Virus record (IMG/VR): IMGVR_UViG_3300012920_000350
Span: 1-20,908 of that record
Direction: 5' to 3' (one strand)
Length of the DNA: 20,908 nucleotides
Source: a virus
The notes under the pieces were generated by a model. That model had not been told where the DNA came from, searched no databases, and saw only the letters and a program-made list of their open reading frames with translations. Numbering within the stretch: position 1 is the stretch's first letter; every line of letters starts with the position of its first letter. Below, piece after piece: positions 671 through 18,533 of the stretch. Both the position numbers and the translations under genes were made by a program.

Positions 671-682
671 CATATTTATATA
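671..682 (+). promoter_or_regulatory. Putative phage late promoter 1 (CATATTTATATA)
   Basis: Contains the 10-mer ATATTTATAT shared by five intergenic gaps in this window, 20 nt upstream of the ATG at 703. No obvious -35-like element is shared among the copies, as in T4 late promoters. It would drive the 136-aa protein, the gp5-like protein and the 184-aa protein. Confidence 0.65.
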
Positions 683-702
683 CAACATAATATGGTATAA
701 TC

Positions 703-1113
703 ATGAGTACAAATTTTGAATTATTTCCTGGCAAAAACTTAAGTGGATTGTTTGAAGATATCTATGAGAATCAGAAAAACAAGAAACAAAGGATATCAGA
801 ATTGATTGCTGAAATGAAAAAGGTAATTAGACATTCTGGTGATATGGCAGTGATTGGGCCAATCATAAAAGATTTAGTTGATACTTCAGTTAGAAACGAT
901 GAATCACTAATCAAGATGGCAGCAATTGCACAAAGAATGATTGCCTCGAAAGATAAATCAGAAGGAGATACTGGTTTCCTTACTGATAAAGAAAAAGAAC
1001 AATTACTACAACAATTAGAAGATACAGTTTACGAAGTTGAAAATGAAAAAACAAAAGTTGATGATTTAACCAATGAGGTTGAAGAATTAAAACAAAAAGT
1101 AAACAATGAGTAG
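703..1113 (+). CDS. Small helical/coiled-coil phage protein of unknown function
   Basis: 136 aa and probably almost wholly helical. Residues 20-85 contain NQKNKKQRISELIAEMKK followed by a segment with PIIKDLVD and NDESLIKMAAIAQRMI. Residues 97-136 form an acidic, heptad-like coiled coil (LLQQLEDTVYEVENEK...VEELKQKV). There is no signal peptide, membrane segment or cysteine. Size and helical layout are loosely like a T4 gp16-type small terminase subunit, but I see no diagnostic motif and no large terminase beside it. It is the first gene after a late promoter and overlaps the gp5-like gene by 8 nt, which points to a virion or assembly role. No clear Shine-Dalgarno sequence precedes the ATG. 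Confidence 0.75.
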   Translation: MSTNFELFPGKNLSGLFEDIYENQKNKKQRISELIAEMKKVIRHSGDMAVIGPIIKDLVDTSVRNDESLIKMAAIAQRMIASKDKSEGDTGFLTDKEKEQLLQQLEDTVYEVENEKTKVDDLTNEVEELKQKVNNE

Positions 1114-2332
1114 AAGAGGACTAATAAATAGTAGTAGATATTACGATGCAAGACCACGAAAATCAGGTGTTGGTATTGTACTTGATGTTATCTTAGATGA
1201 TACACATGAACGAGTTAGTGATACTGGTCTTGGTAATGAAGAAACCAAAAAAACTGGTTTGATTGGAGCAGTTATTGTCAGAGGTGCAGAAGATACTACA
1301 ACACCAGATAAAGATTTAATCCCTATAAGACCATACGACCAAAACATTGTAAATCTTCCACTTATTGGTGAAAGTGTAGAAATAATCTACATAGGTACAC
1401 AAAAGTTTTACAAAAGAATGTCAGCACCAAATCTAAACAGAGGTACTGCAGTTGTAAATAAAAACAAAGATGTAAACACCGCAAGTTCAAATGATGTAGA
1501 TGATAGTTCTAATTATAGAGAAGCAAGTTCGACTGGTATTTCATCTCAGTCTGGTGGTGGTGATAGAGATACTGAACTTGGAGAATATTTTGAAGAATCA
1601 AAAGTAAATTCACTAAAATTATATGAAGGTGATAAAATTATACAATCAAGGTTTGGACAATCTATAAGATTTAGTGGATTTAATAATACTGAAAATGTTT
1701 TAGCACCTACAATTCTTATAAGAAATAGACAGAGTGATAAATCATTAGAAGAATTAAAAGAAGGTTCACAAACAGAAGAAGATGTAAGTTTTGATGGTTC
1801 AACAATAGCAATCACAAGTGGAGAGTATCTATTAGATTTCATACCAGGTACAGAAGATACTCCAATCGATACTCAACCTGTTTATCAAGAACCACCTGAA
1901 GAACTTAATGGTGACCAGATACTACTTAATAGTGGTAGAATCATTTTATCATCAAAAGAATCCGAAATGATGTTTATTTCAAAAGGAAATATGCAATTCA
2001 TAACTGATGGTGAAATTACAATAGATGCTGGATTAAGTGGTGCTAAGATAGATTTAAATGGTGAGTATAGAACTACAACAAATGATAATGATATGTTTTT
2101 CTTAGGTGGAAGTGGAAGAATATTTTTAAATGTTGATGGTAGTGAAGAGGAGCCATTGGTTAGAGGGAACACCTTATTAGAATTATTAGAACAATTAATT
2201 GATGAAATAAACAAACAAATTTTCAACACCCCTGCAGGACCAACTTCACCTGGCCCAACAAACGCAGCCAAGTTTAATGAAATAAAAGGTAAGTTGAACG
2301 AGTTTCTATCTACTCAAAACTTTACGGAGTAA
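1106..2332 (+). CDS. gp5-like baseplate hub/spike protein (OB-fold, beta-rich), no lysozyme domain seen
   Basis: 408 aa. The N-terminal region (about 15-110, GVGIVLDVILDD...NLPLIGESVEIIYIG) looks like the OB-fold of phage baseplate hub/spike proteins. A low-complexity Ser/Asp linker follows (about 120-160). Then come SRFGQSIRFSGF and LIRNRQSD, and a beta-rich stretch from about 270 (ILLNSGRIILSSKESEMMF, GEITIDAG, GAKIDLNGEY) resembling the needle-like repeats of gp5/VgrG spikes. The C-terminus is helical (LLELLEQLIDEINKQI). T4 gp5 is 575 aa with an internal lysozyme domain; none is visible here and the length leaves little room for it. The start overlaps the previous gene and the gene lies just upstream of the gp25/gp6 block. 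The family assignment is an inference from fold-like patterns and position. Confidence 0.65.
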   Translation: MSRRGLINSSRYYDARPRKSGVGIVLDVILDDTHERVSDTGLGNEETKKTGLIGAVIVRGAEDTTTPDKDLIPIRPYDQNIVNLPLIGESVEIIYIGTQKFYKRMSAPNLNRGTAVVNKNKDVNTASSNDVDDSSNYREASSTGISSQSGGGDRDTELGEYFEESKVNSLKLYEGDKIIQSRFGQSIRFSGFNNTENVLAPTILIRNRQSDKSLEELKEGSQTEEDVSFDGSTIAITSGEYLLDFIPGTEDTPIDTQPVYQEPPEELNGDQILLNSGRIILSSKESEMMFISKGNMQFITDGEITIDAGLSGAKIDLNGEYRTTTNDNDMFFLGGSGRIFLNVDGSEEEPLVRGNTLLELLEQLIDEINKQIFNTPAGPTSPGPTNAAKFNEIKGKLNEFLSTQNFTE

Positions 2333-2336
2333 CACC

Positions 2337-2891
2337 ATGTCTTTTAGTCTATTCAAGAGTAACATGAAATTTTATATGGAAAACCAAAATGGTATTGAGA
2401 AATACCAAGATTGGACAGATAAAATTGTGTCTGAATATGATTCATGTGTAAAGAGAGGTGGTGATATGATGAATGGTAAAATCCCAGTCCAAATAGGAAA
2501 AACATCTGCAATGAAATCGATGGTTAATATTGCATGTATGAATGGTTTAAATGGTTCAGAACAATTTTATAATGATTTTGGAAAAGGAGTTGTAGCATAT
2601 TGGACGGGTGCAGAAATGAGTCCGTTTCCAATACCACTTACACCTGCACCAAGTTCTGTACAAAATATACAAACTACTAAAGGAATTGTTAGTAATCCAG
2701 GTACTTGGCCATCTGGTAAACTTTTCCCAACTGATAAGGTAACTACCTTTTTAGATAGAATAGTATCGGGTATGCAGGGACATATCAATACTGTGGGTGG
2801 AGAATACTATACACAATCATTATATCCAGCAGGACCATCCATGATTGTTCTTCCCGGTATGGTCAAGTGGATGGGATATACGATTCCATAA
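2337..2891 (+). CDS. Phage protein of unknown function, probably structural
   Basis: 184 aa, 4 nt after the gp5-like gene, with a GGAG ribosome-binding site (acggagtaacaccATG). The N-terminal half is helical and mixed-charge (NGIEKYQDWTDKIVSEYDSCV). The centre is rich in Pro, Ser and Thr (SPFPIPLTPAPSSVQN). The C-terminal half has SGKLFPTDKVTTFLDRIVSG and a Pro/Gly-rich tail ending in GMVKWMGYTIP. Co-transcription with the hub/spike gene suggests a baseplate or tail accessory role. No catalytic motif, signal peptide or transmembrane helix was recognised. Confidence 0.7.
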   Translation: MSFSLFKSNMKFYMENQNGIEKYQDWTDKIVSEYDSCVKRGGDMMNGKIPVQIGKTSAMKSMVNIACMNGLNGSEQFYNDFGKGVVAYWTGAEMSPFPIPLTPAPSSVQNIQTTKGIVSNPGTWPSGKLFPTDKVTTFLDRIVSGMQGHINTVGGEYYTQSLYPAGPSMIVLPGMVKWMGYTIP

Positions 2892-2909
2892 CCATAAAAC
2901 TTACAAACA

Positions 2910-2920
2910 TATATTTATAT
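2910..2920 (+). promoter_or_regulatory. Putative phage late promoter 2 (TATATTTATAT)
   Basis: A copy of the ATATTTATAT element in the 45-nt gap after the 184-aa gene; the 11-mer ATATTTATATT ends 15 nt before the ATG at 2937. It is the only such element before the contiguous block reaching 15360, so it may serve the whole gp25-gp6-giant-protein unit. Confidence 0.65.
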
Positions 2921-2936
2921 TAGTAAAACTAAACGA

Positions 2937-3506
2937 ATGACAATGAATACAAAACAAATAGTAAAAGTAATCAAAACATTGGTAGAAGCTGAAGTGGCAA
3001 AAAAACACGAGCAGTTTTTAACCAAATCATTCCCTAAAATATTAGAGGAAGAGATATCTCGTAGAATGAAATCTACTCAACCGATTGTACAAGAAGAAGT
3101 AACGGAAGTAGACCCATTTGAACAAGCAGAATTAGCTTTACAACAAGAGAGAACAGAAGAACCACAAAGACAGTTATCAAGAAATCCTGTCTTAAATGAG
3201 GTTTTAAATAATACAAAACCATTTACATCAGAACAAAGAAAAGGTGGAGTTGAACAAAAATCAGTTTTAGATAATTTTCAACAACCACAAGTAAATGAGA
3301 GTATGGATAAGACAGTGACATTTAATTCTCAAGGTGCTCAAGGTGGTACTGATATGATGAGAGCTCAAATGGCACAAAAAATGGGTTATGGTAGTATGAG
3401 AAAAGGACCAAGTAAAACTGGTCTTGGAGTTCAGACAGGATTACCTGGTTTAGATAGAATTCTAAACAGAGATAATTCAGAACTCGTTAAAAAGTTTAAG
3501 AGGTAA
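2937..3506 (+). CDS. Hydrophilic phage protein of unknown function
   Basis: 189 aa, charged and Gln-rich. Residues 5-50 are probably helical (IVKVIKTLVEAEVAKKHEQF). A Glu/Gln-rich stretch follows (DPFEQAELALQQERTEEPQRQ), then a probably disordered middle with MMRAQMAQKMGYGSMRKGP, and a C-terminus with GLPGLDRILNR ending in a Lys/Arg-rich tail. A second in-frame ATG at 2943 is an alternative start; neither has a strong Shine-Dalgarno sequence. It sits directly after a late promoter and 7 nt before gp25. That position suggests a baseplate assembly factor or minor structural protein, but nothing in the sequence proves this. Confidence 0.7.
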   Translation: MTMNTKQIVKVIKTLVEAEVAKKHEQFLTKSFPKILEEEISRRMKSTQPIVQEEVTEVDPFEQAELALQQERTEEPQRQLSRNPVLNEVLNNTKPFTSEQRKGGVEQKSVLDNFQQPQVNESMDKTVTFNSQGAQGGTDMMRAQMAQKMGYGSMRKGPSKTGLGVQTGLPGLDRILNRDNSELVKKFKR

Positions 3507-3513
3507 TTAAAAA

Positions 3514-3945
3514 ATGGCTTATATTGTTGGAAGAAAGGTTGTTAAGGATACAAGTGAATTCGATTCTTTTGCGTATGGTATAACTTTACCAGCAAAAAGA
3601 GGGAACACTGGTTTCTTTGAACAAGCGTTTACTTCTTTCGAACAAACAAAAAGTAATTTATTGAATTTACTTTCAACAAGAAAAGGTGAAAGGATAATGC
3701 AACCAGAATTCGGTACAGGTTTACACGAACTTTTGTTCGAACCTATGACTTCCGATTTTGAAAGTAAGTTAACAGAAACAATTGAAGGTAGTGTTAACTT
3801 TTGGTTGCCTTATGTTACGATTAAAGAAATTGATGTTGATATGACTGATGAAATGAAAGATTCTCATACAGCAAGATTAAATATAAAATTTACAGTTGGG
3901 AATCAAATTGAAACAGACGAAATAACATTAACAATACAGGAGTAA
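3514..3945 (+). CDS. 25: Baseplate wedge protein, gp25 family
   Basis: 143 aa, close to the usual length of T4 gp25 (132 aa). The core has FEQTKSNLLNLLSTRKGERI then the family hallmark PEFGTGLHELLFEP (residues 64-77, with the EFG motif). After it come helix TSDFESKLTETIEGSV, WLPYVTIKEIDVDM and a closing beta-strand. This is the GPW/gp25 family, which forms the inner wedge ring and links the baseplate to the sheath in contractile-tail phages. An AGAGG ribosome-binding site lies upstream, and the gene is followed within 5 nt by gp6, its normal partner. Confidence 0.92.
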   Translation: MAYIVGRKVVKDTSEFDSFAYGITLPAKRGNTGFFEQAFTSFEQTKSNLLNLLSTRKGERIMQPEFGTGLHELLFEPMTSDFESKLTETIEGSVNFWLPYVTIKEIDVDMTDEMKDSHTARLNIKFTVGNQIETDEITLTIQE

Positions 3946-3949
3946 TAAC

Positions 3950-5971
3950 ATGGCATTAAACTCAGCAACATTTAGAAGTAATAAGGGAAGAGATATAAAG
4001 TATCTAAATAAAGATTTTGCATCATTTAGAACCAACTTAATTGAATACGCAAAAACTTATTTCCCTCAAACTTATTCTGATTTCAATGAATCATCACCTG
4101 GTATGATGTTTATTGAGATGGCAGCATATGTTGGTGATGTTCTTTCATATTATGTAGATGATACATTGAAAGAATCAATGATGTTGTATGCTGAAGATAA
4201 AGAAAATGTACTTGCTCTATCTCAGTATCTTGGATATAAACCAAAAGTAGTTTCACCTTCTATAGCTGAAATTGCAGTGTATCAAGTTGTACCATCGATT
4301 GGAAGTGGTGCAGATAATAGACCTGATTCAAAATTTTATTTAAGAATTAAAGAAGGTATGTTGATAGAATCTACTGATGCTAACAATACTATTTTTAGAA
4401 CATCAGAATTGTTAGATTTCAATGATGATTATGAAAGAGAAATTACAATCTATACTCGTGATAATGTTTCCAATGAACCAGCACAATATCTTATAAAGAA
4501 ATATGTTAAAGCAATTTCAGCAACAGTAAAAACAAGAACTGTATCATTTGGTAGTGCTGAACAATTTAACAAAATAGATTTAGCAGATGATAATGTAATT
4601 GATATTTACGATGTAAGAGATTCAAATGGTAACAAGTGGTATGAAGTACCATATTTAGGACAAGAGATGGTTTATATTGATTATCCTAATACTGAACAAT
4701 TTGATAAAGACCTTTCTCAATTTAAAGATTCAGTACCAAGTGTTTTAAAATTATTCAAAACATCAAGAAGGTTTGTTAAACAAATAAACGCAAATAATAC
4801 AACATCATTAGTTTTTGGTGGTGGAGTTGTTACCGATGATGAAACACTAATACCAAACTTTAAAAATGTTGGATTAGGATTAAATTCATCGATAGATAGA
4901 TTAGGTGCATCATTTGACCCATCAAATTTCTTAAAAAATAAAACATACGGTCAATCTCCATCAAACACAGATATAACAGTAAGTTATTTAGTAGGTGGTG
5001 GTGTAGAATCAAATGTGGGTGTAGGAACTCTTACAAGAATTCAAAGTGTTGCATATGATGAAGATTTATCTACATTTGATACTGATGATTTAAGAACATA
5101 TAGAATAGCAAAAAACTCTTTAGCAGTTGATAACGAAAAAACATCATCAGGTGGTAGAGGTGCTGAAACGATTGAGGAAATTAGAGAAAACGCACTTGCA
5201 AACTTTGGTTCACAGAATAGAGCGGTAACAAGAAAAGATTATCAAGTAAGAGCGTTATCAATGCCTCCAAAATATGGTGGTATTGCAAAAGCATATTGTG
5301 CACCAGATGGTGAGTTAGATAATAATTCACCAGCATCAATACTTGCATCACCAGATTCTCTAAACGAATTTGCAGAATTAATTCAAGATTATAAAGATAG
5401 AGATTTAACAGAAACACAAATCAAATCAGATTTACAAAAGTTTCTTATAGGAAAAAAACAAAATATTCAAGAAAAGAATAATCCATTCGCAATCAACTTA
5501 TATTTACTCGGATATAATTCAGAAAAGAAACTAGCTGTTCTGAATCGTGCAGTAAAAGAAAACTTAAAAACATACCTAAGTGAATATAGATTATTGACAG
5601 ATGGTGTAAATATACTTGATGGATATATTATTAACATCGGAGTAGATTTTGAAATAAGATGTTATGGTGGATATAATAAAAGAGAAGTTCTTGCAAAATG
5701 TATTAGAGAACTATCAAGTTATTTTTCTATTGATAACTTTACATTTAATATGCCAATCAACATAAGTGAAGCAGAATTAGTTGTTGCAGGAGTTGAAGGT
5801 GTATCATCAGTACCAAAGTTTGAAATTGTTAACAAATGTTTAGGAAACTATTCTTCACATTCATACAACATATCAGATGCAACTAAAAACAAAATGGTTT
5901 ACCCATCATTAGACCCATCTGTATTTGAAGTAAAGTTTCCAAACAAAGATATAAAAGGAAGGGTTGTATAA
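3950..5971 (+). CDS. 6: Baseplate wedge protein, gp6 family
   Basis: 673 aa, near the 660 aa of T4 gp6. The N-terminus has the family block KYLNKDFASFRTNLIEYAK, then SPGMMFIEMAAYVGDVLSYY (residues 49-68) and SQYLGYKPK. The middle carries the gpJ/gp6-type segment RGAETIEEIRENA followed by AVTRKDYQVRALSMPPKYGG. The C-terminal part is alpha/beta (GVDFEIRCYGGYNKREVLAK). gp6 forms the backbone ring of the baseplate wedges. A GGAG ribosome-binding site is at 3941-3944, and the stop overlaps the next ATG as TAATG, suggesting translational coupling. Confidence 0.92.
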   Translation: MALNSATFRSNKGRDIKYLNKDFASFRTNLIEYAKTYFPQTYSDFNESSPGMMFIEMAAYVGDVLSYYVDDTLKESMMLYAEDKENVLALSQYLGYKPKVVSPSIAEIAVYQVVPSIGSGADNRPDSKFYLRIKEGMLIESTDANNTIFRTSELLDFNDDYEREITIYTRDNVSNEPAQYLIKKYVKAISATVKTRTVSFGSAEQFNKIDLADDNVIDIYDVRDSNGNKWYEVPYLGQEMVYIDYPNTEQFDKDLSQFKDSVPSVLKLFKTSRRFVKQINANNTTSLVFGGGVVTDDETLIPNFKNVGLGLNSSIDRLGASFDPSNFLKNKTYGQSPSNTDITVSYLVGGGVESNVGVGTLTRIQSVAYDEDLSTFDTDDLRTYRIAKNSLAVDNEKTSSGGRGAETIEEIRENALANFGSQNRAVTRKDYQVRALSMPPKYGGIAKAYCAPDGELDNNSPASILASPDSLNEFAELIQDYKDRDLTETQIKSDLQKFLIGKKQNIQEKNNPFAINLYLLGYNSEKKLAVLNRAVKENLKTYLSEYRLLTDGVNILDGYIINIGVDFEIRCYGGYNKREVLAKCIRELSSYFSIDNFTFNMPINISEAELVVAGVEGVSSVPKFEIVNKCLGNYSSHSYNISDATKNKMVYPSLDPSVFEVKFPNKDIKGRVV

Positions 5972-7029
5972 TGTATTATTTCGTAACATCATCTAAAGAT
6001 TCTTCAATCTATCTACAACAACCAACTCAGAATACTGGTAGAGATGAGATACTTGAAGTATCAAAAACTTATTATGGTAACTTAAAAGATATTGCAAGAA
6101 GTTTAATTAAATTTGAAACAACTCCTCTTTCACAATCAATCGCAAGTGGAGATGTAACTATGAGTTCTGCACATTTAGTTTTAAGAGAATGTGAAGCATC
6201 TGAAATTCCAATTGATTATACAATCTATGCATATCCTGTCTCACAATCTTGGGAAATGGGAATCGGTACAAGATTTGATGAAATATCAACTGATGGTGTA
6301 TCATGGAACAAAAGAGGAACAGCAAATTGGTTAGTAAATGGTTTGGCAGCAGGAACAACTGGTTCTTTCAACGGAAAGGGTGGAACATGGTACACTGGTT
6401 CTGCATCATCACAATCATTTTCATATCAATCTGCGGATATAGAGATGGATGTATTAACACCACTTAATTCTTGGATTAGTGGTTCAATACCAAATGAAGG
6501 TTGGATTATCAAACATGATTCCGCAAAAGAAAACGATACAACAGATTATGGTCAGTTAAAGTTTTTCGGTAAAGAAACAAATACTGTATATCAACCTAAA
6601 ATAAGAATTGGTTGGGATGATTCTTCGTTCTCTACTGGTTCTTTAACAGAACTTACTGAAGATGATATTCATATTACATTTAAAAGATTAAAAGCAAGAT
6701 ATAAGAGAAACAATACAGTTACAATTAGAGTTTGTGGTAGAGAAAAATATCCTCTGAAAACATATGATAATTTATATTCTTATACTGATATAAAATATTT
6801 ACCAGCTACAACATATTATCAAATAAAAGATGCTATAACTGAAGAAACAATTGTACCATTCCATGATACTTACACAAAGGTAAGTTGTGATTCAACTGGT
6901 AACTATTTTAAATTAAATTTAACAAACTTTGAATATAATAGAGAATATTATATAGAAATCAAAGTTAATAGAAGTGGTAATATAGAATACTTTACAGAAA
7001 AGGATTTAACATTTAAGGTTGAAAAATAA
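5971..7029 (+). CDS. Virion protein with N-terminal DNRLRE-like beta domain
   Basis: 352 aa. The N-terminus (SSKDSSIYLQQPTQNTGRDE, then ARSLIKFETTPL and SAHLVLRECEA) follows the pattern of DNRLRE domains: D-x-x-I, N-x-G, a central R-x-L-x-x-F strand and A-x-L-x-L. Such beta-sandwich domains occur in secreted and surface proteins. Residues 90-200 are Trp/Gly/Ser-rich beta segments (WEMGIGTRFDE, GGTWYTGSASS), and the C-terminal third is also beta-rich with charged strands. The gene is joined by TAATG overlaps at both ends, to gp6 and to the coiled-coil protein. It occupies the position of gp7/gp8 in T4 order but shows no recognisable similarity to them. A peripheral baseplate or fibre-attachment role is inferred. 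Confidence 0.7.
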   Translation: MYYFVTSSKDSSIYLQQPTQNTGRDEILEVSKTYYGNLKDIARSLIKFETTPLSQSIASGDVTMSSAHLVLRECEASEIPIDYTIYAYPVSQSWEMGIGTRFDEISTDGVSWNKRGTANWLVNGLAAGTTGSFNGKGGTWYTGSASSQSFSYQSADIEMDVLTPLNSWISGSIPNEGWIIKHDSAKENDTTDYGQLKFFGKETNTVYQPKIRIGWDDSSFSTGSLTELTEDDIHITFKRLKARYKRNNTVTIRVCGREKYPLKTYDNLYSYTDIKYLPATTYYQIKDAITEETIVPFHDTYTKVSCDSTGNYFKLNLTNFEYNREYYIEIKVNRSGNIEYFTEKDLTFKVEK

Positions 7030-8216
7030 TGAGTTTAAGAGACAAATTTAGAATTAAAGAGCTTACGTCTTTTGGACAACAAGCCTTACGAAAGGATGAA
7101 AAGGGCATTGTTGTTAAAAGGAAAGATGGTAAAGAGGTAAAGCCGAAAGATGTTTCGGTTGAAGATAGAATATTGTCTAAAACTCCAAAGTTAGGAAAAC
7201 TTAAAAAGAAAAATCCAATCATTATACCAGATGAAAAACAAGAAAGTTATTCCGGTGAAGTAAGTGATTATGTTGAAAGATTAAAATATAACGAAGAAGA
7301 ACTTAAGAAAGCATTAGATGTTGATGTTGATGAGTTAATAAAAGCAGAACCAAAAGATTTACCTAAGATAATCAGTAGAAAGGCTTTTGAAAGATTACAA
7401 GGATTATATCAATCTGCTCAAGAAAATATACTTAATTTAACAAACAAATTAAAAGCAGAAGAATCTAAAGTATCTGGTTTAGAAACAACAATAGCAGATT
7501 TACAGGCAAGATTGGCTGCAGCACAAGCAGCACAATTAAACGCAGAACAAGAGTTGATTGCATCAAACGCAAAGTTTGCATCACTCTTAATTGATTTCCA
7601 AAACGCCCTTTCTAAAGGTATTCAAGAGGGGACTGAGAGGGTTTCTTTAGAATCACAACTGAGAGGGTTACAAGCAGAAAAAATTACATTTAAAGAGGTT
7701 GTAGGTAATTACGAAAAACAATTATTACAATCACAAGAAAGAATAGCAGAGTTAAACCAAAACATATTACAATTACAATCTGATGTTACACAAGCACAGA
7801 GAGATGCGATTAGAGCAAATCAATCTGCAGCATCAAACTCAGGTGGTAAAATTATATGTAATGAATTATACAAACAAGGTTATCTACCAGAAGAAATTTG
7901 GGATGCAGATGAAAGATGGGGAGCAGCAAGATTTATTACAGACCCTAAATTAGTTGTAGGATATCAAATGTGGGCAAGAAAGGTTGTGAAGTTTATGAGA
8001 AAAAATCCACAATGGACACCTACAATTTATTTCTTATGTAAACCATGGACAGAGTGGATGGCTTATGATATTGGAGTATTACCAAAAAATAACCTCAGAG
8101 GACAGTTTACTCAATGGGTAGGTAGATATTTTTCATATTTTGTTTTCGATATGTATGGTGGACAAAAATTATTAGATAAATACAATTATAAATTATTTAA
8201 ACAATCATGGCAATAA
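7029..8216 (+). CDS. Coiled-coil tail protein with conserved C-terminal ICxELxxQGYLP module
   Basis: 395 aa in three regions. Residues 1-75 are Lys-rich and probably flexible. Residues about 118-270 form a long coiled coil (NLTNKLKAEESKVSGLETTI, AELNQNILQLQSDVTQAQ) with a short break near 195. Residues about 273-395 are a compact module beginning GGKIICNELYKQGYLPEEIW, with DADERWGAAR, GYQMWARKVVKFMRKNP and a hydrophobic C-terminus. I have a general impression of this C-terminal pattern (ICTELHRQG...Y..WA.P.V..MR) from the ends of other phage tail-associated proteins, but its function is unknown to me. TAATG overlaps the upstream gene and 10 nt overlap the next. A trimeric fibre or a baseplate-anchored extension is plausible. 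Confidence 0.65.
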   Translation: MSLRDKFRIKELTSFGQQALRKDEKGIVVKRKDGKEVKPKDVSVEDRILSKTPKLGKLKKKNPIIIPDEKQESYSGEVSDYVERLKYNEEELKKALDVDVDELIKAEPKDLPKIISRKAFERLQGLYQSAQENILNLTNKLKAEESKVSGLETTIADLQARLAAAQAAQLNAEQELIASNAKFASLLIDFQNALSKGIQEGTERVSLESQLRGLQAEKITFKEVVGNYEKQLLQSQERIAELNQNILQLQSDVTQAQRDAIRANQSAASNSGGKIICNELYKQGYLPEEIWDADERWGAARFITDPKLVVGYQMWARKVVKFMRKNPQWTPTIYFLCKPWTEWMAYDIGVLPKNNLRGQFTQWVGRYFSYFVFDMYGGQKLLDKYNYKLFKQSWQ

Positions 8217-10117: not shown

Positions 10118-13100
10118 TGGCAGTAAGTAGAGACATAATACGAGATGGATTCAGAGATAATATCTTTACAGATGATATTAGAATACGCGATACGCGAGAT
10201 GATGAAGTGCGAGATGATATTAAAATAGGTGATACTCGTGATGATATTAAAATAGGTGATACTCGTGATGATAGAAAAGATGATAGAATCGACATTATTG
10301 ATGATATTAAATTTGATGATGTAGTTGATGATATTATTGTCATTGATAAAGGTGGTTGTACAGACCCTACTGCACTAAACTATGATAGAAATGCAACTTA
10401 TGATAACGGAAGTTGTAAATACAAAGTAGTTGATATATCCCCTAAAGAAACAAGAAAAGAACTAAAGGTATTGTTTAAGGTAAACCAAAAAGGTTTTACT
10501 GTTAAGGTAGATGGTAGAGATAACCCACAACCAATTATATTTTCAAATACCGAATTATTAACTCCAAAATTAATTACTGTATGTAAGGGTAATTTTAAAG
10601 CAAATACAACTTATAGAGTTTCTACTAAAAAAAGACAACAAAGAATTTCAACTATAAAATCTGGTGTGAATAATTTTATTGACCCAAGAATGGGGATGAC
10701 TGGTTTTGGTAATACCTATGTTGGTGATATTGATACTCGACTTAGAAATAATTTTATAAGTGATACACAAATAACTTATTCATATAGAGATGTTTATGAA
10801 GTATGTGTTGAAAGATTAGTAAATGGTAAGTTTGTATATACAACCGTTCCAGGTCAAGTCGTAATTGCAAAGAATTTATTAGATGTTAAAGTTGATGAAA
10901 ATAATGTTATAGAATTTCCAAAATCAATAACTTTAGATTTTACATTAGATAAAATAGTAATTGATGACCCTGTCAAGTTTAATATACTTGAAGTAAAAGC
11001 AGATATACCTGGAAATAATTTAATTAAATATACATCTGAGAAAGGTGATACTGGTTTTATCATTAATGGTACACAAGAAATTAAACTAACACGAGATGAA
11101 ACTTTTATTGAATTTGGACCAAATACCGAGTTTGATGAAAATGGATTTAATTTTTCTTACCAATTAAATACAGATAAGATAGCAATTAAATCACCTTATA
11201 GAAGAGTTTCTATAAAAGGTAAAGCAAAACAAAGTTTATCAATTCAAGTAAGTAGAATCGTAATTGATGCACCAGACCCAGTAGTAGGTAAAACACCAAT
11301 AGTTGCTCCAAAAAATGGTAAATCTTTTTCATTTAATGTACTACAAAAAAATCCATTAGAAATTGTATATAGTTCTGCAAACGCGACAGAAGTAAGATAT
11401 TCACTTGGAAAAGTTCAAAAGAAAATTATACCTTCAGGTAAAATAAAATTAACCAATGCAGATTTTCCAAATGGTATTGGTAACTATGTTTTATATTTAC
11501 AAGGATATTCAGAAGTAAATGGAACAGGTCCTGTTGAGAAAATACCTATACAAGTATTTAGTAAACAAATATTACCAGGGCCAGATATTACTCATATCAA
11601 TTATCCACAATTAGTAAGGGGTGCAGATTTTAAAGGATTTAATGTTGACTTTAAAGTAAGTTGGCAATCAGTAAACACCGATTATATTTACATCTATGCT
11701 GGTAAACCAAGTAAAGAAAGTGCACTTGGAAAATTTTCTCCTGCAGGTGCTGCTACATTTAATATAGGACAACTTTTAAATGTAATGGCAAGAGGTGGTG
11801 GTAAAGCATTAGATGTTTTAACCTCTGGTAGAGATTTATCTAAGATACCACTTTATTTAGAACCATTCAACGCACGAGGTGATTCGTTAACAAAAGGTAA
11901 ATTAGAGAATGTTAATATTACTTTCGATAAAGGTGATTTAACATTAAGAAGAGGTGTTGTTGTAAATAGTATTAGAAACGCATACGATAAAGGACTTAAA
12001 TATGAATTATTCCAAGATGAGATTTCTAAGTTCCTTACACATTATTTACACATTGGTGATGGTGATAATAAGTTAGTTGCAACTTGGGGAATTGATACCG
12101 AAACATTCAACGAATACGAAGATGGATTTAATGAAGATGGTACACCTTTTAGAAAAAAACTAACTGATGAAAAAAGCTTAGTTCTTAAATTATACGAACC
12201 ATTACCAAGAAATATAGGAACAAATGATTCTGTTTGGATTTCCAAAGCTCAATCAATACCTTTAATTGAACAAATAACAATCTTAGATGAGATTGCAAAA
12301 GAATGTACTCCACTAACTCCAAACTTTGATTTGGAAATTGGTGATGATATTGGATACCAAATATTAGATGATTTAGTAGCAAGTGGTTCTGCAACATCTA
12401 CTGATTTAGTAAATAAATTTGTAAGTGGTTCTGGTTTTGAATTAGATAATCTTAACTTTAACTTTGTCAGTAGTTCAGATTATAATTGGAAAGATTTCGT
12501 TAAATTCTCATCTGCAGAAGAAAGAGCACGAAACTTCTTCTATAAAGTAGAAACGATACAATTCTATGAGAATAAAAAGAATAATCTAACAGTATCACAA
12601 CCAGCATCAAGTAGTGTTGCAGTTTTAAATGAAGTTAAAAAACTTGATTTAAATATTAAAAAACTTGAAAACAATTTTGATGCTTTTGAAAAATATCTAT
12701 ACACTACAAGTGGTTCATTATCATATCCAGGTGCAGGACAGAATGCAATATCATCATCAACAAACTCAGATGCAATATCTTGGAAAGATGGTATTGTAAG
12801 TAGTGCACAAACATTTGATGAATTAAACTCATCAAGATTATCTTACAATCTACCAGCACATATTATTAACAACACCAATAATGATGAGTTTACATTATTC
12901 TTTGATATGATTGGTCAACACTATGATGTAATTTATTCACATATTAGACAAATCACTAAATCAAAGAAAGCAGAAAACAAATTTATAGATGGAATCAACG
13001 ATGAATTAATTTATCATATGTTGGAATCTCTTGGGTGGAATGCAGACGAAGGAGTTCAATCTCAGTTCTTATGGGAATTTGCGTTTGGTAAAGATAAAGA

Positions 13101-15360
13101 TGGAACACAATCAAGAGCATTAAGTGGAAAAGCAAGACAACAAGAAATATGGAGAAGAATATTAAATAACTTACCATATCTTTTAAAACATAAAGGTTCA
13201 AAACGAGCACTTCATGCCTTACTATCATGTTATGGTGTTCCTGCATCTTTATTAACAATTGTAGAATTTGGTGGACCAAGAGATATAGATTCGAATGGTA
13301 CAACTAAATTTACATACGAAGATAGAACCGCATCGATTGGAATAAGCGGTTCAGAAAGTATTTCAATACCGTGGGATGAAGTTACTTCAACTTCCGACCA
13401 CCCAAATGCAATTGAGTTTAGATACAAAACATCAGAAAAACAAGAACAACAAATTGTAAGTGGTTCACAATGGTCATTATCATTAGTACCATCAACTGGT
13501 TCTTTAGCATCAGTAAAACTTGAAGTATCTGGTTCTACAACTTTGTATAGTGCATCAACTGATACATTCCCATGTTATAATACTGATTATATTTACTTCG
13601 CTGTAAATAAAGAAACAATTAGTGGTGAAGATTACTTTGATGTTTATGTAAAAGAAACAATTGATGAAAGATTAAAAACAGATGTATCTAAAAGATTAAT
13701 AGTACCAACGATAAGTGGTTGGAGTAGTGGTTCGTATGTTCAATTTGGTGGTTCAACAATTACCGGTTCTCTTGACGAAGTAAGATTATGGAAAACTCCA
13801 CTATCATCATCAAGATTAGATAATCACGCATTCTTACCAGATGCAATTGATGGAAATCATGTTTCCTCATCAACAGAAGATTTATTATTTAGATTAGATT
13901 TTGAATATCCAAAAAATAGAAGTACAAGTGGAGACCCTTATATTAAAAATGTTGCACCAATTAACACATATGCAACATTCGCTACAGCATCTAATTTTGA
14001 AAATATTTCATCGTATCCATATCAGTATGTATCATACGATAGAACGGTAACTGCAACTGTACCATCATCTGGTTTTAATTATTCAAACAAAGTAAGATTT
14101 GAAACACAAACATTAACTTCAAACTTATCGTATAGAAGTAGAGCAACTAAAAAATCATTTGACCAAGCACCAATTGATTCTGATAAATTAGGATTATTTT
14201 TCTCACCAATAAAAGAGATTAATATGGATATCTTAAAATCAGTTGGTAACTTTAATATAGATGATTACATCGGTGACCCTGCAGATGAGTATAACTACGA
14301 ATATAAAAAATTAAATGATTTAAGAAATTATTACTTTGATAGATATACTCTTAATTTACACGAGTATATTCAACTTGTAAGATATATAGATAAAACATTA
14401 TTTAAATCTCTTGAATCACTCGTACCTGCAAGAGCAAAAGTTGCTAGTGGATTGTTAATTGAACCACACATACTTGAAAGAAGTAAAACTAAGTGGACTA
14501 AACCAACTGGTACAGAAAATTATCACGAAGGAATTGCTGATGTTGGAGAAGATGTTGTACTTACATCGACTGCAGAACAATATTTAGCAGAAGTATCTGC
14601 ATCAGAAGATACTATCTTGAGTGGTGATAATAATCAATTTGAAGGTCTTATTAGTGAATCAACAGATATACCATTGACAGGAACTCATACCGATTTTCAA
14701 GTAATTATAAACACCGAAGTTGATAAGGATTTATCAGGTGTTATTACAAGAAATAGTGGTTCTGATATGGGTGGATTTGATATAAGTATTGATGCATTGG
14801 TAACACAATCAGTACAAGGACAGGTAGATACAACTGAATTTGTACAAGTTGGAAATGACCCAAATGGAATTTCAAATCAAACATTTGGTATCTACGCAGA
14901 AAACGGACACTCAAATATTACAAGAATATTTAGAGGTGAAATGATAAAAGAAAGAAGAAAAGTTTACATTCTAAAAGAAAGATATACTGTTGCTGAGAGA
15001 GTTAATATAGATTCAAATGATTCATCTCTTGGTACAGAGGTTGTAAATAAAACTAAACACAGATTTAAAGTAACTAAATTACCAATTACAGGTAGTGATG
15101 GAAACCCAACAACAGCACCAAGTGTTGCTGGTGATATTGTAGAGGTTACTGCACTTGATGGATATTCAAACCAACATTACAGATTCGTTGAAGATGTAAC
15201 ACATGGTTTAGAAAATTCGTTCTATAATGGTAGTTTACAAACATCTGCAACAACTGTTGATGGTTCATCACCAGTACAGACATTTACTACAAATCCGAAT
15301 ACTCTTAAAGTTTCTGATAGTGGTAGAGGTAGTGGAGAACCAATTTTAGAAGTAGATTAA
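10117..15360 (+). CDS. Giant multidomain tail/baseplate protein with Asp/Arg repeat, GCTDP repeat and LamG-like domain
   Basis: 1747 aa, the largest gene here. Residues 1-78 are an Asp/Arg/Ile-rich low-complexity segment built on DDIKIGDTR units. Residues 80-100 are a GCTDPTALNY...DNGSC repeat. Residues about 110-600 are beta-rich, probably Ig-like domains. Residues about 660-1050 are mostly helical, including FFDMIGQHYDVIYSHIRQI and WRRILNNLPYLLKHKGSKRA, a pattern I associate with phage tail/baseplate proteins. Residues about 1080-1260 resemble a LamG/concanavalin-like jelly roll (IEFRYKTSEKQEQQIVSG, then GSLDEVRLWKTPLS). A conserved-looking segment SLVPARAKVASGLLIEPHIL follows near 1430-1450, then a Ser/Thr/Asp-rich C-terminus. 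TAATG couples it to the upstream gene. It probably projects from the baseplate and may contact host glycans; this is inferred from the lectin-like fold. Confidence 0.75.
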   Translation: MAVSRDIIRDGFRDNIFTDDIRIRDTRDDEVRDDIKIGDTRDDIKIGDTRDDRKDDRIDIIDDIKFDDVVDDIIVIDKGGCTDPTALNYDRNATYDNGSCKYKVVDISPKETRKELKVLFKVNQKGFTVKVDGRDNPQPIIFSNTELLTPKLITVCKGNFKANTTYRVSTKKRQQRISTIKSGVNNFIDPRMGMTGFGNTYVGDIDTRLRNNFISDTQITYSYRDVYEVCVERLVNGKFVYTTVPGQVVIAKNLLDVKVDENNVIEFPKSITLDFTLDKIVIDDPVKFNILEVKADIPGNNLIKYTSEKGDTGFIINGTQEIKLTRDETFIEFGPNTEFDENGFNFSYQLNTDKIAIKSPYRRVSIKGKAKQSLSIQVSRIVIDAPDPVVGKTPIVAPKNGKSFSFNVLQKNPLEIVYSSANATEVRYSLGKVQKKIIPSGKIKLTNADFPNGIGNYVLYLQGYSEVNGTGPVEKIPIQVFSKQILPGPDITHINYPQLVRGADFKGFNVDFKVSWQSVNTDYIYIYAGKPSKESALGKFSPAGAATFNIGQLLNVMARGGGKALDVLTSGRDLSKIPLYLEPFNARGDSLTKGKLENVNITFDKGDLTLRRGVVVNSIRNAYDKGLKYELFQDEISKFLTHYLHIGDGDNKLVATWGIDTETFNEYEDGFNEDGTPFRKKLTDEKSLVLKLYEPLPRNIGTNDSVWISKAQSIPLIEQITILDEIAKECTPLTPNFDLEIGDDIGYQILDDLVASGSATSTDLVNKFVSGSGFELDNLNFNFVSSSDYNWKDFVKFSSAEERARNFFYKVETIQFYENKKNNLTVSQPASSSVAVLNEVKKLDLNIKKLENNFDAFEKYLYTTSGSLSYPGAGQNAISSSTNSDAISWKDGIVSSAQTFDELNSSRLSYNLPAHIINNTNNDEFTLFFDMIGQHYDVIYSHIRQITKSKKAENKFIDGINDELIYHMLESLGWNADEGVQSQFLWEFAFGKDKDGTQSRALSGKARQQEIWRRILNNLPYLLKHKGSKRALHALLSCYGVPASLLTIVEFGGPRDIDSNGTTKFTYEDRTASIGISGSESISIPWDEVTSTSDHPNAIEFRYKTSEKQEQQIVSGSQWSLSLVPSTGSLASVKLEVSGSTTLYSASTDTFPCYNTDYIYFAVNKETISGEDYFDVYVKETIDERLKTDVSKRLIVPTISGWSSGSYVQFGGSTITGSLDEVRLWKTPLSSSRLDNHAFLPDAIDGNHVSSSTEDLLFRLDFEYPKNRSTSGDPYIKNVAPINTYATFATASNFENISSYPYQYVSYDRTVTATVPSSGFNYSNKVRFETQTLTSNLSYRSRATKKSFDQAPIDSDKLGLFFSPIKEINMDILKSVGNFNIDDYIGDPADEYNYEYKKLNDLRNYYFDRYTLNLHEYIQLVRYIDKTLFKSLESLVPARAKVASGLLIEPHILERSKTKWTKPTGTENYHEGIADVGEDVVLTSTAEQYLAEVSASEDTILSGDNNQFEGLISESTDIPLTGTHTDFQVIINTEVDKDLSGVITRNSGSDMGGFDISIDALVTQSVQGQVDTTEFVQVGNDPNGISNQTFGIYAENGHSNITRIFRGEMIKERRKVYILKERYTVAERVNIDSNDSSLGTEVVNKTKHRFKVTKLPITGSDGNPTTAPSVAGDIVEVTALDGYSNQHYRFVEDVTHGLENSFYNGSLQTSATTVDGSSPVQTFTTNPNTLKVSDSGRGSGEPILEVD
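10213..10266 (+). repeat. Perfect 27-bp tandem duplication (DDIKIGDTR x2)
   Basis: Two identical, adjacent 27-bp units at 10213-10239 and 10240-10266, each encoding DDIKIGDTR. Degenerate copies flank them (DDIRIRDTR upstream; DDRKD, DDIKFDDVV and DDIIVIDK downstream). Base-level identity suggests recent slippage expansion. Confidence 0.9.
10354..10416 (+). repeat. Third GCTDPTA-type protein repeat
   Basis: Encodes residues 80-100 of the giant protein, with G-C-T-D-P-T-A-L-N-Y at the start and D-N-G-S-C at the end. It has the same 21-residue length as the two copies in the upstream gene. Confidence 0.85.
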
Positions 15361-15389
15361 TCGTTTTTTAATTAATTTTATGAAATACT

Positions 15390-15401
15390 TATATTTATAT
15401 A
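15390..15401 (+). promoter_or_regulatory. Putative phage late promoter 3 (TATATTTATATA)
   Basis: A copy of the shared element in the 66-nt gap after the giant gene, ending 25 nt before the ATG at 15427. It is followed by a good ribosome-binding site (GAAGGA). It drives two virion genes that end at the terminator at 17331-17356. Confidence 0.7.
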
Positions 15402-15426
15402 TTGTAAACAAAGAAGGAACAAAACT

Positions 15427-16056
15427 ATGGCTTATTTAAACAATTCAGAAATCACAGTTGATGCTATCCTTACTAAAAAGGGTAGAGAGAAGTTAGCAGC
15501 TGGACAAGGATTAAACATTACTAAGTTCGCATTAGGGGATGATGAGATAGATTACACCCTATACGAACCTGCACATCCAAAGGGTTCTGCATACTATGAT
15601 GCAGCAATAAAAGCAATCCCTATTACTGAAGCTTCTCCAGATGAAACTCAAGTATTAAAATATAAATTAGTAACCTTACCAAAAGGTACTGTTAAGATTC
15701 CAAAGGTAGAATTTGGTGTTCCTTCAATTTCTGTAAATCAGAACTCAGGCCAAGTTTCTTTAACACCAACAACTTCACCAAGTGGAAACGCACAAGCAGG
15801 ATACACAGTTATCTTATCTAATAAGAACGCAGGTTCTCTTGTAGGTACTGGTATCGCAGCAGGAACAGGTACAATACCTGTTTTCTTAGGAGACGAAATT
15901 ACAACAACTGCAGCAGTAGAAACTGGATTAGAATTCCAATTTATTCCTAACCCAAATATTACTGCTACAATTAGAACAACAATTACTGTATATGGTAACG
16001 AAACGGGTGGTTCTCAAACAATACCAGTGACAGTTACATATGTACAACCAAGTTAA
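15427..16056 (+). CDS. Virion structural protein with ILTKKGREKLA...FALGDDEIDY N-terminus
   Basis: 209 aa. Residues 14-43 read ILTKKGREKLAAGQ followed by ITKFALGDDEIDY, an N-terminal signature I associate with phage structural proteins. Residues from about 98 on are a beta-rich Thr/Ser/Gly domain (PSISVNQNSGQVSLTPTTSP, TTITVYGNE, TIPVTVTYVQPS), perhaps Ig-like. No cysteine, signal peptide or membrane segment is present. It has its own late promoter and a GAAGGA ribosome-binding site, consistent with high late expression. It could be a tail, fibre-base or decoration protein; the exact role is unknown. Confidence 0.7.
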   Translation: MAYLNNSEITVDAILTKKGREKLAAGQGLNITKFALGDDEIDYTLYEPAHPKGSAYYDAAIKAIPITEASPDETQVLKYKLVTLPKGTVKIPKVEFGVPSISVNQNSGQVSLTPTTSPSGNAQAGYTVILSNKNAGSLVGTGIAAGTGTIPVFLGDEITTTAAVETGLEFQFIPNPNITATIRTTITVYGNETGGSQTIPVTVTYVQPS

Positions 16057-16078
16057 TAAGAGGAAAGAGAATTAAATT

Positions 16079-17302
16079 ATGGCACAAATACAAGGACAAG
16101 CGGCTAATGCACTGAGAGATAGTTTAATCAGCTATCTTGAACAACAGACACCAAATTTAAGTTCTGAAGAAATCATTCAGAGGTTAAATGAGTATCTGGC
16201 TGGTGGTGATAAAGTTGCACCACAAGGTGGTTCAATCACAAACGGAATCTATAAAAGATTTCTTGAATTCGATAAGATTACTAATAAAGTTGAAGTTGTA
16301 ACTACTGGTCTATGGAGTGGTGATACTGGTTCCTTAACTACATTCTTTTCATCTTCAACTCAAAATGCTTTAGATTACTATGTTAATGTTTATGATAAAG
16401 ACCCATCAACTGATTCGACTGGTACTGTACAGTTTGCCATAGCTTACGGACACAGACATGGAAGTGGTTCAGTATCATTAGCAAATGATGATAGTTCTAC
16501 ATTAGCAACTAAAGCAACATACGCACAATATAAATCAATTCTTTTAGACCAAGATGATAATGTATTCACATTCACATCATCTTCTGGTCAGTTTGATTCA
16601 AGTGATATTTATGTTATCAATGTAAAAAGAAGTAGATATCGTGAATCAATGGATGCAGGAAACTGGTCATTAAAGATTAGTGGTTCAAATGGTAACTACA
16701 CTACTTTAATTGACGATAGTGGTAAGAAATTCTCAGATTCAGTTGGTAAAGCTGGTAGAGTATTCAATGTAGTAAGTGGTTCATTGAACTTAGGTTCACA
16801 ATCAGAAGCAACAGTTGCTGCTAACTACGATGCTGGAAGTACTGGTAAAGGATTTGGATTATTTTATCCAGACCAAGGATTAATTGTATTAAACCCAACT
16901 GCAATTCACAATACAATTGGAACTTCTAAAGATAGTGGTTCTAATGCAGGTGCTTCATTGTATAGTGGAGTTGGATATGAAGGACAAAATGGATTCCTAT
17001 TATATCACGCAATTAAGGGTGGAGCTGATTTCGAAGCAAGAAGAACAGAAAATGTTTCTACTTCTCATTACTTCGTAAGAGCAACAAACAGAGAATTTAA
17101 CTTCTCTAACAACCCAACATTCGTAACAGGTTCAGATGGAACATTCTCAGAATCTACTTTTGAAAGAGACCCAAAAACTTTCATTACAACGATTGGATTA
17201 TATAATGATGCAAACGAAATGATTGCAGTTGCTAAAACATCACAACCAATTGCTAAATCATTTGATAAAGAAGTTTTAATCAAAGTAAAACTTGATTTCT
17301 AA
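16079..17302 (+). CDS. Virion structural protein (paralogous C-terminus with the 376-aa protein)
   Basis: 407 aa. The N-terminus is helical (NALRDSLISYLEQQTPNLSS). It is followed by Ser/Gly/Asp-rich beta segments and the motif SSDIYVINVKRSRYRESMDA near 175-200. The C-terminal 65 residues (EFNFSNNPTFVTGSD then TTIGLYNDANEMIAVAK, near 370-386, ending VLIKVKLDF) match the plan of the end of the 376-aa protein downstream. A purine-rich ribosome-binding site (AGAGGAAAGAG) precedes the ATG. The gene is co-transcribed with the 209-aa protein and closed by a terminator. It is likely a virion protein, possibly tail or fibre-associated; no enzymatic motif was seen. Confidence 0.7.
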   Translation: MAQIQGQAANALRDSLISYLEQQTPNLSSEEIIQRLNEYLAGGDKVAPQGGSITNGIYKRFLEFDKITNKVEVVTTGLWSGDTGSLTTFFSSSTQNALDYYVNVYDKDPSTDSTGTVQFAIAYGHRHGSGSVSLANDDSSTLATKATYAQYKSILLDQDDNVFTFTSSSGQFDSSDIYVINVKRSRYRESMDAGNWSLKISGSNGNYTTLIDDSGKKFSDSVGKAGRVFNVVSGSLNLGSQSEATVAANYDAGSTGKGFGLFYPDQGLIVLNPTAIHNTIGTSKDSGSNAGASLYSGVGYEGQNGFLLYHAIKGGADFEARRTENVSTSHYFVRATNREFNFSNNPTFVTGSDGTFSESTFERDPKTFITTIGLYNDANEMIAVAKTSQPIAKSFDKEVLIKVKLDF

Positions 17303-17330
17303 ACCGTAGGCACACATTTTCAAACATAAC

Positions 17331-17356
17331 AAACCCCATCGAGTATGGGGTTTTTT
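17331..17356 (+). terminator. Rho-independent terminator
   Basis: A 9-bp perfect stem (AAACCCCAT, 17331-17339, pairing with ATGGGGTTT, 17345-17353) with a 5-nt loop (CGAGT) and a T-run at 17351-17356. It lies 28 nt after the 407-aa gene and just before late promoter 4. It is the only convincing terminator seen in the window. Confidence 0.92.
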
Positions 17357-17363
17357 ATTTCAG

Positions 17364-17375
17364 TATATTTATATA
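17364..17375 (+). promoter_or_regulatory. Putative phage late promoter 4 (TATATTTATATA)
   Basis: A copy of the shared element starting 8 nt after the terminator T-run and ending 13 nt before the ATG at 17389. A ribosome-binding site (AGAGGA) follows it directly. Confidence 0.7.
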
Positions 17376-17388
17376 GAGGAATTATACT

Positions 17389-18519
17389 ATGTTAAAATCA
17401 GTACCAAAGTCAAATGTATCCGTAAGAGATTTTAAAGTTCATAAAAATTGGACACTCGATAATACGGATTTAGATGTTGTTTCTGCTTCAGTAGAATCAG
17501 GACTATTTGATGCAGATTCATCAAATAAACAAGGTACTATTTATACAACCCCACTTTACAAATCGTTAAAAGCAAAATATTATAATCATAACGGAAACAT
17601 AGTTTTAACATTTGGTGATTACCAAAACATTTCAAAATTACCTGCTGAAAGACCAATTTCATCAACATTTTATATTATTGATATACCTCAACAAAAATAT
17701 GGTGAGACGGTAAAAAAACAATCAGTTAGAATAATTGATAACACAAATGCAATTACATATCGAGATGATGGAGAAGGTAAAATCGCATCATCAGTACCTC
17801 AGTACAATCTTTCATCAATGGATTTTTATACTGCAGAAATCATTATTACAGATAATGATGGAGATGTTTTTACAGGTACGATTACTTCTATTGATTTAGA
17901 GACAGGATTATCTACATTAACATTTGGTACTGATACAGATATCGTAACGATAGTGAGAATAGATTTTGAATTAGGTACAATTCAATTTGCTGCTCCATTA
18001 AATTTTGATGGATTAGATATTGATGAACAAACTTATGGAAATATATTTTATTCGGATGGTTTGATTGTAATGAGAAATGATATAGGTAATGATTACTTAG
18101 TAAAATATAAATCAACACAAACTATTTATGAAACTGAAGTTTTAGTTACTGCAAAGGCAGGTGAATTTAACTATTCACAAAACCCATCTGCTATTGAAAT
18201 GACATTAAGTAGTTCAATAGATTTTGAAGAAACTGCTTTTGGAAGATTTAGAGCAAGAACTAAAAAAATAAAATATGTAGAAGATATTAAACGAAAAGAA
18301 AGTTTCGTTGGTAGTGTAAGTAGTTCTATAAGTGGTTCATGGAATGATTACTATGATAACCAATTAGCAGACCCAACTGGTTCATATATTACTACTTATG
18401 TTACAACAATCGGTCTTTACGATGAAGAAAATAATATGGTTGCAATTGCTAAATTACCTAAACCAATAAAGAATTTACCAGATTATGATTTAAACTTTAT
18501 TATTCGTTTGGATACATAA
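17389..18519 (+). CDS. Virion structural protein, paralogue of the 407-aa protein at its C-terminus
   Basis: 376 aa. The N-terminal part (SVRDFKVHKNWTLDNTDLDV) differs from the upstream protein. The middle is beta-rich, with alternating Asp/Thr/Ile strands. The C-terminal part repeats the upstream protein's plan: EFNYSQNPSAIE, then TTIGLYDEENNMVAIAK, then PIKNLPDYDLNFIIRLD. Its own late promoter and AGAGGA ribosome-binding site suggest substantial late expression, separate from the upstream gene because a terminator lies between. It probably belongs to the same structure as the 407-aa protein. No catalytic motif is visible. Confidence 0.7.
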   Translation: MLKSVPKSNVSVRDFKVHKNWTLDNTDLDVVSASVESGLFDADSSNKQGTIYTTPLYKSLKAKYYNHNGNIVLTFGDYQNISKLPAERPISSTFYIIDIPQQKYGETVKKQSVRIIDNTNAITYRDDGEGKIASSVPQYNLSSMDFYTAEIIITDNDGDVFTGTITSIDLETGLSTLTFGTDTDIVTIVRIDFELGTIQFAAPLNFDGLDIDEQTYGNIFYSDGLIVMRNDIGNDYLVKYKSTQTIYETEVLVTAKAGEFNYSQNPSAIEMTLSSSIDFEETAFGRFRARTKKIKYVEDIKRKESFVGSVSSSISGSWNDYYDNQLADPTGSYITTYVTTIGLYDEENNMVAIAKLPKPIKNLPDYDLNFIIRLDT

Positions 18520-18521
18520 TC

Positions 18522-18533
18522 TATATTTATATA
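18522..18533 (+). promoter_or_regulatory. Putative phage late promoter 5 (TATATTTATATA)
   Basis: A copy of the shared element 2 nt after the stop of the 376-aa gene, ending 19 nt before the ATG at 18553, with AAAGGAG between. It would transcribe the 60-aa gene, the sulfotransferase and the GIY-YIG gene. Confidence 0.7.

Follow-up and report, generated by a model that had tools for sequence, protein, structure and literature searches.

A ten-base box at the heads of virion operons as the probable late promoter of a family of far-T4 viruses

We analysed a 20,908-base stretch of viral DNA (IMG/VR record IMGVR_UViG_3300012920_000350, hereafter the window), in which an initial annotation had noted five copies of the 10-mer ATATTTATAT and had proposed them as late-promoter elements; the fuller form of this box reads TATATTTATA. 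Our results make it probable that the five boxes are late promoters of a far-T4 myovirus, itself most likely a virus of Bacteroidota, and that they are read by a sigma factor resembling gp55 of phage T4. A large family of T4-like viruses, probably of Bacteroidota, marks the starts of its virion operons with this box, so that a classic viral gene switch seems to have been recast to suit a different host.

Results

The box in the window

Judged from its predicted genes, the window (G+C content of ~31%) has the gene content of the tail region of a far-T4 myovirus. Flavobacterium phage immuto, 'Microcystis' phage Mel-JY01 and the 484-kb record LR756508 encode homologues of several of its large unannotated proteins, and Rhodothermus phage RM378 encodes distant ones. 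The record is a fragment, and genome-scale tests were made instead on relatives, with records of 288.7, 287.5, 162, 167 and 160 kb. Two of these, G001 (288,673 bases) and G002 (287,455 bases), are long relatives of the window.

The 10-mer ATATTTATAT was found five times in the window, always on the + strand (672-681, 2911-2920, 15391-15400, 17365-17374 and 18523-18532), as the initial annotation had reported. In 100 dinucleotide shuffles of the window the mean was 0.57 copies and the maximum was 3, with 0/100 reaching five. The coding strand reads TATATTTATA, and the T4 element TATAAATA is present on the opposite strand only, so that the orientation described initially was also correct. The fuller form is complete at four of the five sites, the first having C for the leading T (CATATTTATA).

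Each box precedes the first gene of one of five virion-side operons. Element 1 (671..680, +) is located 21 nucleotides (nt) before gene 703-1113, which encodes a coiled-coil-like protein; element 2 (2910..2919, +) lies 16 nt before gene 2937-3506; element 3 (15390..15399, +) lies 26 nt before gene 15427-16056, a conserved gene with 573 relatives in IMG/VR; element 4 (17364..17373, +) lies 14 nt before gene 17389-18519, for which a search by peptide pattern found no IMG/VR relative; and element 5 (18522..18531, +) lies 20 nt before the small gene 18553-18735, all five genes being on the + strand. The corresponding transcripts are predicted to start at ~684, ~2923, ~15403, ~17377 and ~18535, respectively, on the assumption that the A at box position 2 (672 in element 1) is equivalent to A(-12) of T4. 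All five boxes are intergenic and none falls within a likely gene, and the four full copies of TATATTTATA are intergenic also according to an independent gene caller. The placement claimed at the outset, between genes and outside coding sequence, therefore stands, with the gap amended from 13-25 to 14-26 nt.

The gene behind element 2 heads a run that holds a gp25-like baseplate wedge gene (3514..3945, +; phrog_261, 5.7e-18) and a gp6-like baseplate wedge gene (3950..5971, +; phrog_219, 2.5e-22). The gp25-like gene is internal to the operon and has no late box directly 5' of it. An intrinsic-terminator-like hairpin with a T tail (17331..17353, +) ends the operon 15427-17302 and is located directly 5' of element 4.

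Conservation before orthologous genes

We collected the distinct 70-nt upstream sequences of the orthologues of each window gene from 160 related IMG/VR loci. The 8-base core of the box was present in 29/29 upstreams for gene 703, 35/35 for gene 2937, 54/54 for gene 15427 (the full 10-mer in 50/54), 45/51 for gene 17389 and 31/47 for gene 18553. The core was thus found before 66-100% of the orthologues of the five operon heads, compared with 0-1% for ten control genes with 11-78 upstreams each (1106, 2337, 3514, 3950, 5971, 7029, 8207, 16079, 19287 and 19794); for the gp25-like gene at 3514 the count was 0/40. The distance from core to start codon was narrow for each gene, at 21-22, 15-27, 24-34, 14-18 and 19-23 nt for genes 703, 2937, 15427, 17389 and 18553, respectively. 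When the upstreams were aligned on the core, the flanks carried ~0.45-0.85 bits per column, whereas the tenth base of the box, which lies outside the anchor, carried 1.3-1.9 bits. Terminator tails resembling GGGTTTTT are kept just 5' of the box in the orthologues of 703 and 17389.

Distribution in long relatives

An unguided count of upstream 10-base words returned TATATTTATA as the top word in both long relatives, with 25 copies against 0.8 expected in G001 and 17 against 0.7 in G002 (42 against 1.7 together). Copies favoured the main coding strand (35:1 in G001 and 24:3 in G002; 59:4 together) and were intergenic in 32/36 and 25/27 cases, respectively, although intergenic DNA makes up 13-14% of the genome; most were within 60 nt of a start. 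The enrichment over base composition and the scarcity within genes for which the initial annotation had suggested checks were thus both found, in the window shuffles and in the counts for these genomes. Of three minus-strand copies in G002, two are located 19 and 21 nt before minus-strand genes, indicating that the box follows gene direction. Minus-strand or orientation-independent T4 promoters (TATAAATA read leftward) were ruled out on the same grounds. A scan of single substitutions showed the box to be strict at nearly every position. A control in which the word was reversed was invalid for the genome search because the reversed word shares nine bases with the motif.

The late box often directly follows a terminator. 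When genes were classed according to the annotation of immuto, the box was present on 8/15 virion-gene units and on 0/10 replication or metabolism units in each genome (Fisher p 0.0077 each).

A second, host-type class of promoters

Promoters of the Bacteroidota primary sigma factor consist of a -33 TTTG, a spacer of 19 nt (N19) and a -7 TAnnTTTG. The late box shares TATATTT with this -7 element in the same register, and corresponds to the host box TATATTTG with its last G changed to A and TA added. The strongest enriched single-base neighbour of the late box, TATATTTGTA (9 against 0.7 expected), belongs to the host-type class, and the same genomes and the window carry TTTGG-N19-TAnnTTTG, so that the proposed likeness to a modified Bacteroidota -7 box was upheld. 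The two classes are nevertheless distinct. TTTGG was found at a fixed -24 offset for 16/25 TAnnTTTG boxes in G001 and 14/28 in G002, whereas it was found at the same place for 1/23 and 0/17 late boxes, respectively. Late sites contain neither the -33 TTTG nor the -7 TAnnTTTG; they have a single -10-like element with no conserved upstream box, as do T4 late promoters.

The gene classes served also differ. In the window, a host-type promoter TTTGG-N19-TATATTTG (19742..19773, +) is located before the primase gene, which we count among the early genes, the pattern giving one match in the window and none in 100 shuffles. Among the upstreams of primase orthologues, the full host-type pattern was present in 24/48, TAnnTTTG in 36/48 and the late core in 0/48; conversely, the full host-type pattern was not found before the five late operon heads in any relative. 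The division into early and late genes thus follows ordinary logic; what is unusual is the late element.

Mel-JY01 (PP395634.1) has a far-T4 gene set and Bacteroidota-type promoters upstream of its genes (CTTGCATA...TAnnTTTGTA, among ~19 sites). Its annotated host is a cyanobacterium, although it may actually infect a Bacteroidota bacterium present in the culture as a companion. Phage immuto (NC_055915.1) has no TAnnTTTG boxes; a long element, TTG...TATATTTAGGTAT(CAATAATTAAAACA), is conserved upstream of its genes in ~12 copies. This element is one base off the host box and is probably the early promoter of this phage.

Comparison with T4 and other phages

On the coding strand, the T4 word TATAAATA was not enriched (8 against 13.2 expected in G001 and G002, 15 against 11.1 in the immuto group), whereas TATTTATA was (55 against 9.2 and 59 against 7.1, respectively). 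The same pipeline applied to 80 kb of T4 gave the opposite result, with TATAAATA at 7 against 0.8. The core is therefore the exact reverse complement of that of T4, used in the forward sense, and the view that the element is late-promoter-like and unlike the forward T4 word is supported by these counts.

The window boxes and T4 late promoters have in common a single -10-like element, the absence of conservation at -35, an AT-rich start region and an association with virion genes; common to the two systems are also a phage protein with sigma region 2 (predicted in the present case), a phage sliding clamp gene, and A(-12) with a stacking tyrosine (Y97 of gp55 and Y93 of the candidate described below). 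They differ in the coding-strand sequence, which here is TATATTTATA, and the A(-9)A(-8) flipped by gp55 are T,T here (PMC7892883). A single-element late consensus has been tied in silico to gp55 homologues in KVP40, 44RR, S-PM2 and Aeh1; these are highly T4-like or changed at -13/-12 only, and none has been reported with the present box (PMC2988020).

Upstream sequences of Mel-JY01 contained ATATTTATAT (9 against 0.4 expected). In the far-T4 relative RM378 the enriched upstream word is single-element-like and differs from the box (TTATTTAA, 20 against 1.2), and this phage has a sigma resembling the extracytoplasmic function (ECF) type (phrog_1740, 7.5e-34). The RM378 word (NC_004735.1) often stands a few nt before start codons, and the ECF-like sigma gene is located at 128329-128928 (-), so that RM378 may have a separate late system.

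A candidate late sigma factor

Relatives of the window encode a protein of 232-260 amino acids that we consider a candidate late sigma. In immuto it is KNV73_gp118, annotated as hypothetical, which weakly matches the late-sigma family phrog_234 (E 0.008). Orthologues are present in G001 (66938-67702), G002 and Mel-JY01, with hundreds more in IMG/VR; in the collection of annotated phages the protein was found in immuto, Mel-JY01 and LR756508 only. The G001 gene is located ~4 kb upstream of the late box that precedes the orthologue of gene 703. Among 59 diverse members, phrog_234 was the family most often matched, though weakly (7/59, best 0.028). Models of canonical sigma factors (Sigma70_r2 and phrog_1740) matched only the ECF-like protein of RM378 among eight records, and the late-sigma model phrog_12791 gave no match.

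To obtain a structure model of the candidate we used AlphaFold2 (mean predicted local distance difference test score of 78). In a Foldseek comparison the model matched T4 gp55 as it appears in the gp55-RNA polymerase open complex (7d7c_F) with a probability of 0.97, with weak E-values. In VIA alignments the same gp55 chain ranked first of 661 (Z 10.7, 118 residues, root-mean-square deviation 5.0). Nearly all of the other top-50 rows were sigma factors, with others less than one Z unit from gp55; the fold match thus indicates a sigma-2 fold rather than gp55 specifically. On the basis of this model, the candidate is predicted to have the fold of sigma region 2.

In the gp55 structure, A(-12) stacks on Y97, A(-9) is held between N13 and H95, and A(-8) lies on T99 (PMC7892883). 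The low-confidence register given by hhalign places Y97 on Y93 of the candidate, which is invariant in 59/59 sequences, H95 on F/Y91, N13 on G/T14 and T99 on T/S or G/Q95. The A conserved at the second position of the box, and the T,T at its fifth and sixth positions, would fit the pocket residues of the candidate.

The candidate differs from gp55 in having an extra helical domain of ~100 residues. Modelled alone, the C-terminal ~100 residues aligned best, and weakly, to region 4 of sigma70/sigmaA (Z 4.8-5.3), and by sequence they gave no match to gp33. A C-terminal tail of the type [YF][LI]Dx[DE][FY]L was present in 20/33 family members and absent in immuto and Mel-JY01; this tail is reminiscent, by its sequence pattern, of clamp-binding tails. 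A gp45-like clamp is encoded in G001 (5.2e-16), the only record in which the phrog_223 model found one. The search for gp55, gp33 and gp45 homologues that the initial annotation had suggested was therefore positive for gp55-like proteins in relatives and for the clamp in G001, and negative, by sequence in the C-terminal domain of the candidate, for gp33.

In none of 54 distinct loci did the 1.2 kb preceding the sigma gene contain a late box, as would be expected if the gene is transcribed earlier, and in 11 of them a full host-type promoter was present.

Discussion

In the scheme that we propose, early genes would be transcribed by the host sigma factor from TTTGG-N19-TAnnTTTG promoters, and the early gene set would include the divergent gp55-like sigma. 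This protein would bind the host core RNA polymerase and guide it to those virion operons that are headed by TATATTTATA, with the box in the -10 place and no -33/-35 box; in many cases such an operon starts immediately behind the terminator of the one before it. Transcription from the box would take place late and would begin at the predicted starts, and the phage sliding clamp may assist as it does in T4. It is plausible that the late sigma co-evolved with a Bacteroidota RNA polymerase, as had been suggested initially.

Several observations weigh against this scheme. Of the virion-gene units tested, only about half carry a box immediately upstream, and the major capsid and terminase genes of G001 and G002 lack it there; the gene-class tests in these two genomes are non-independent, given that the genomes are related to each other, and the gene calls came from a simple purpose-written caller. 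Comparison of sequence profiles between the candidate and gp55 by hhalign was not significant (probability 1-4%), a PDB sequence search with the candidate found no sigma, and a VIA Z below ~13 is not decisive by itself for a helical fold. The candidate gene also lies outside the window, its presence in the window's own phage being deduced from relatives. As regards the suggested co-evolution, in 150 kb of Tenacibaculum phage PTm1, host-type TATATTTG boxes were present and neither TATTTATA nor TATAAATA was enriched. Given this lack of enrichment in a phage that also has a Bacteroidota host, the box tracks phage lineage and not host phylum alone. Upstream words in PTm1 (AP019524.1) center on ACATTGTTT(T/A)ATAC, and a small gp55-like open reading frame is located at ~173 kb (phrog_234, E 0.006); PTm1 possibly has another late-promoter code in a Bacteroidota phage.

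The alternative that survives best, although we consider it unlikely, is a late promoter read by some other phage factor, such as a DNA-binding activator acting with the host sigma. T4 MotA acts in this manner with host sigma at middle promoters, and the assignment of the box to the candidate sigma is based on co-occurrence and fold. The box is nevertheless found at start-codon distances typical of a -10 element, with no host -7 box behind it, and the protein with the sigma fold has gp55 as its best match.

Slightly less probable still is that an unmodified Bacteroidota primary sigma recognises the box as an atypical -7 element, with no need for a phage sigma. The box does differ from host-type TATATTTG by a change of G to A, and these phages do use host-type promoters. 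However, the -33 TTTGG that accompanies 14-16 of 25-28 host-type sites is missing at the late boxes, in dozens of relatives the two classes stand before separate sets of genes with no overlap, host promoters do not show the strict TA that follows the A, and the phages concerned share a conserved sigma-like protein.

We regard as improbable a third explanation, in which the box functions in RNA as an AU-rich element of the 5' leader (a signal for translation or mRNA stability, or a processing site). Its proximity to start codons (14-34 nt) and the AT-rich leaders would suit such a role, yet the distance between box and start codon ranges among genes from 3 to more than 100 nt while the position after a terminator is kept, internal virion-type operon genes never carry the box, and the box is not confined to the ribosome-binding region. 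Chance AT-rich words, which the low G+C content might favour, were ruled out for practical purposes by the shuffles, the excess in upstream sequences and the conservation across relatives.

If the box is indeed read by a gp55-like sigma, the nature of this reader can be suggested tentatively, in a form that we consider possible yet less probable than not being the case: a one-piece late sigma in which a gp55-like region 2 is joined to a flap-binding domain resembling region 4 or gp33, some family members having a clamp-binding tail as well, and in which changed specificity of the pocket residues turned the core into the reverse complement of that of T4, matched to the Bacteroidota -7 box. A fused late sigma is said not to be found in nature in a review of T4 (PMC2988020).

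Single-element late promoters served by a phage sigma are already known from T4 and its relatives (PMC2988020). A survey of far-T4 phages did not detect the T4 core genes for transcription regulation and left open how these abundant aquatic phages are transcribed (PMC4360716). In the open-access literature, as distinct from the whole literature, we found neither the motif described as a phage promoter nor late promoters in Flavobacterium or far-T4 phages, and the passages on late promoters, Bacteroidetes and sigma factors in an overview of jumbo phages, the one paper found to bring these together, do not mention the box. With respect to the open-access literature searched, the box thus appears new, as do its host group, the divergent sigma factor and a possible joining of region 2 to region 4.

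These results provide a concrete and testable early/late scheme for far-T4 phages and a previously unannotated late-sigma candidate with hundreds of IMG/VR relatives. The A,A of T4 and the T,T of the present box provide two natural combinations of sigma pocket and -10 bases with which to consider the rewriting of promoter specificity upon a change of host phylum. The box also supplies a simple sequence rule for the prediction of operons and host phylum in metagenomic far-T4 contigs.

Neighbouring genes and other observations

Behind the tail-region genes the window carries genes for a sulfotransferase-like protein, a GIY-YIG-like protein and the primase, in that order. The first of these (18746-19324; phrog_3347, 5.1e-08) separates the last late operon from the second (19287-19754). 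The best PHROG match of the GIY-YIG-like protein, phrog_447, is labelled 'NAD synthetase'; homing-endonuclease families match as well, and this label is probably incorrect. Two overlapping frames, 19794-20393 and 20375-20734, make up the primase, and both match the DNA primase family phrog_47. The primase is a single frame in G001 and immuto, and the split may be a sequencing error or a real frameshift.

At 107048-107067 of G001 (G001:C1), two late boxes are exactly adjacent (TATATTTATATATATTTATA). The ~300 nt that follow this pair have no called gene, and the stretch contains gggggtagggg.

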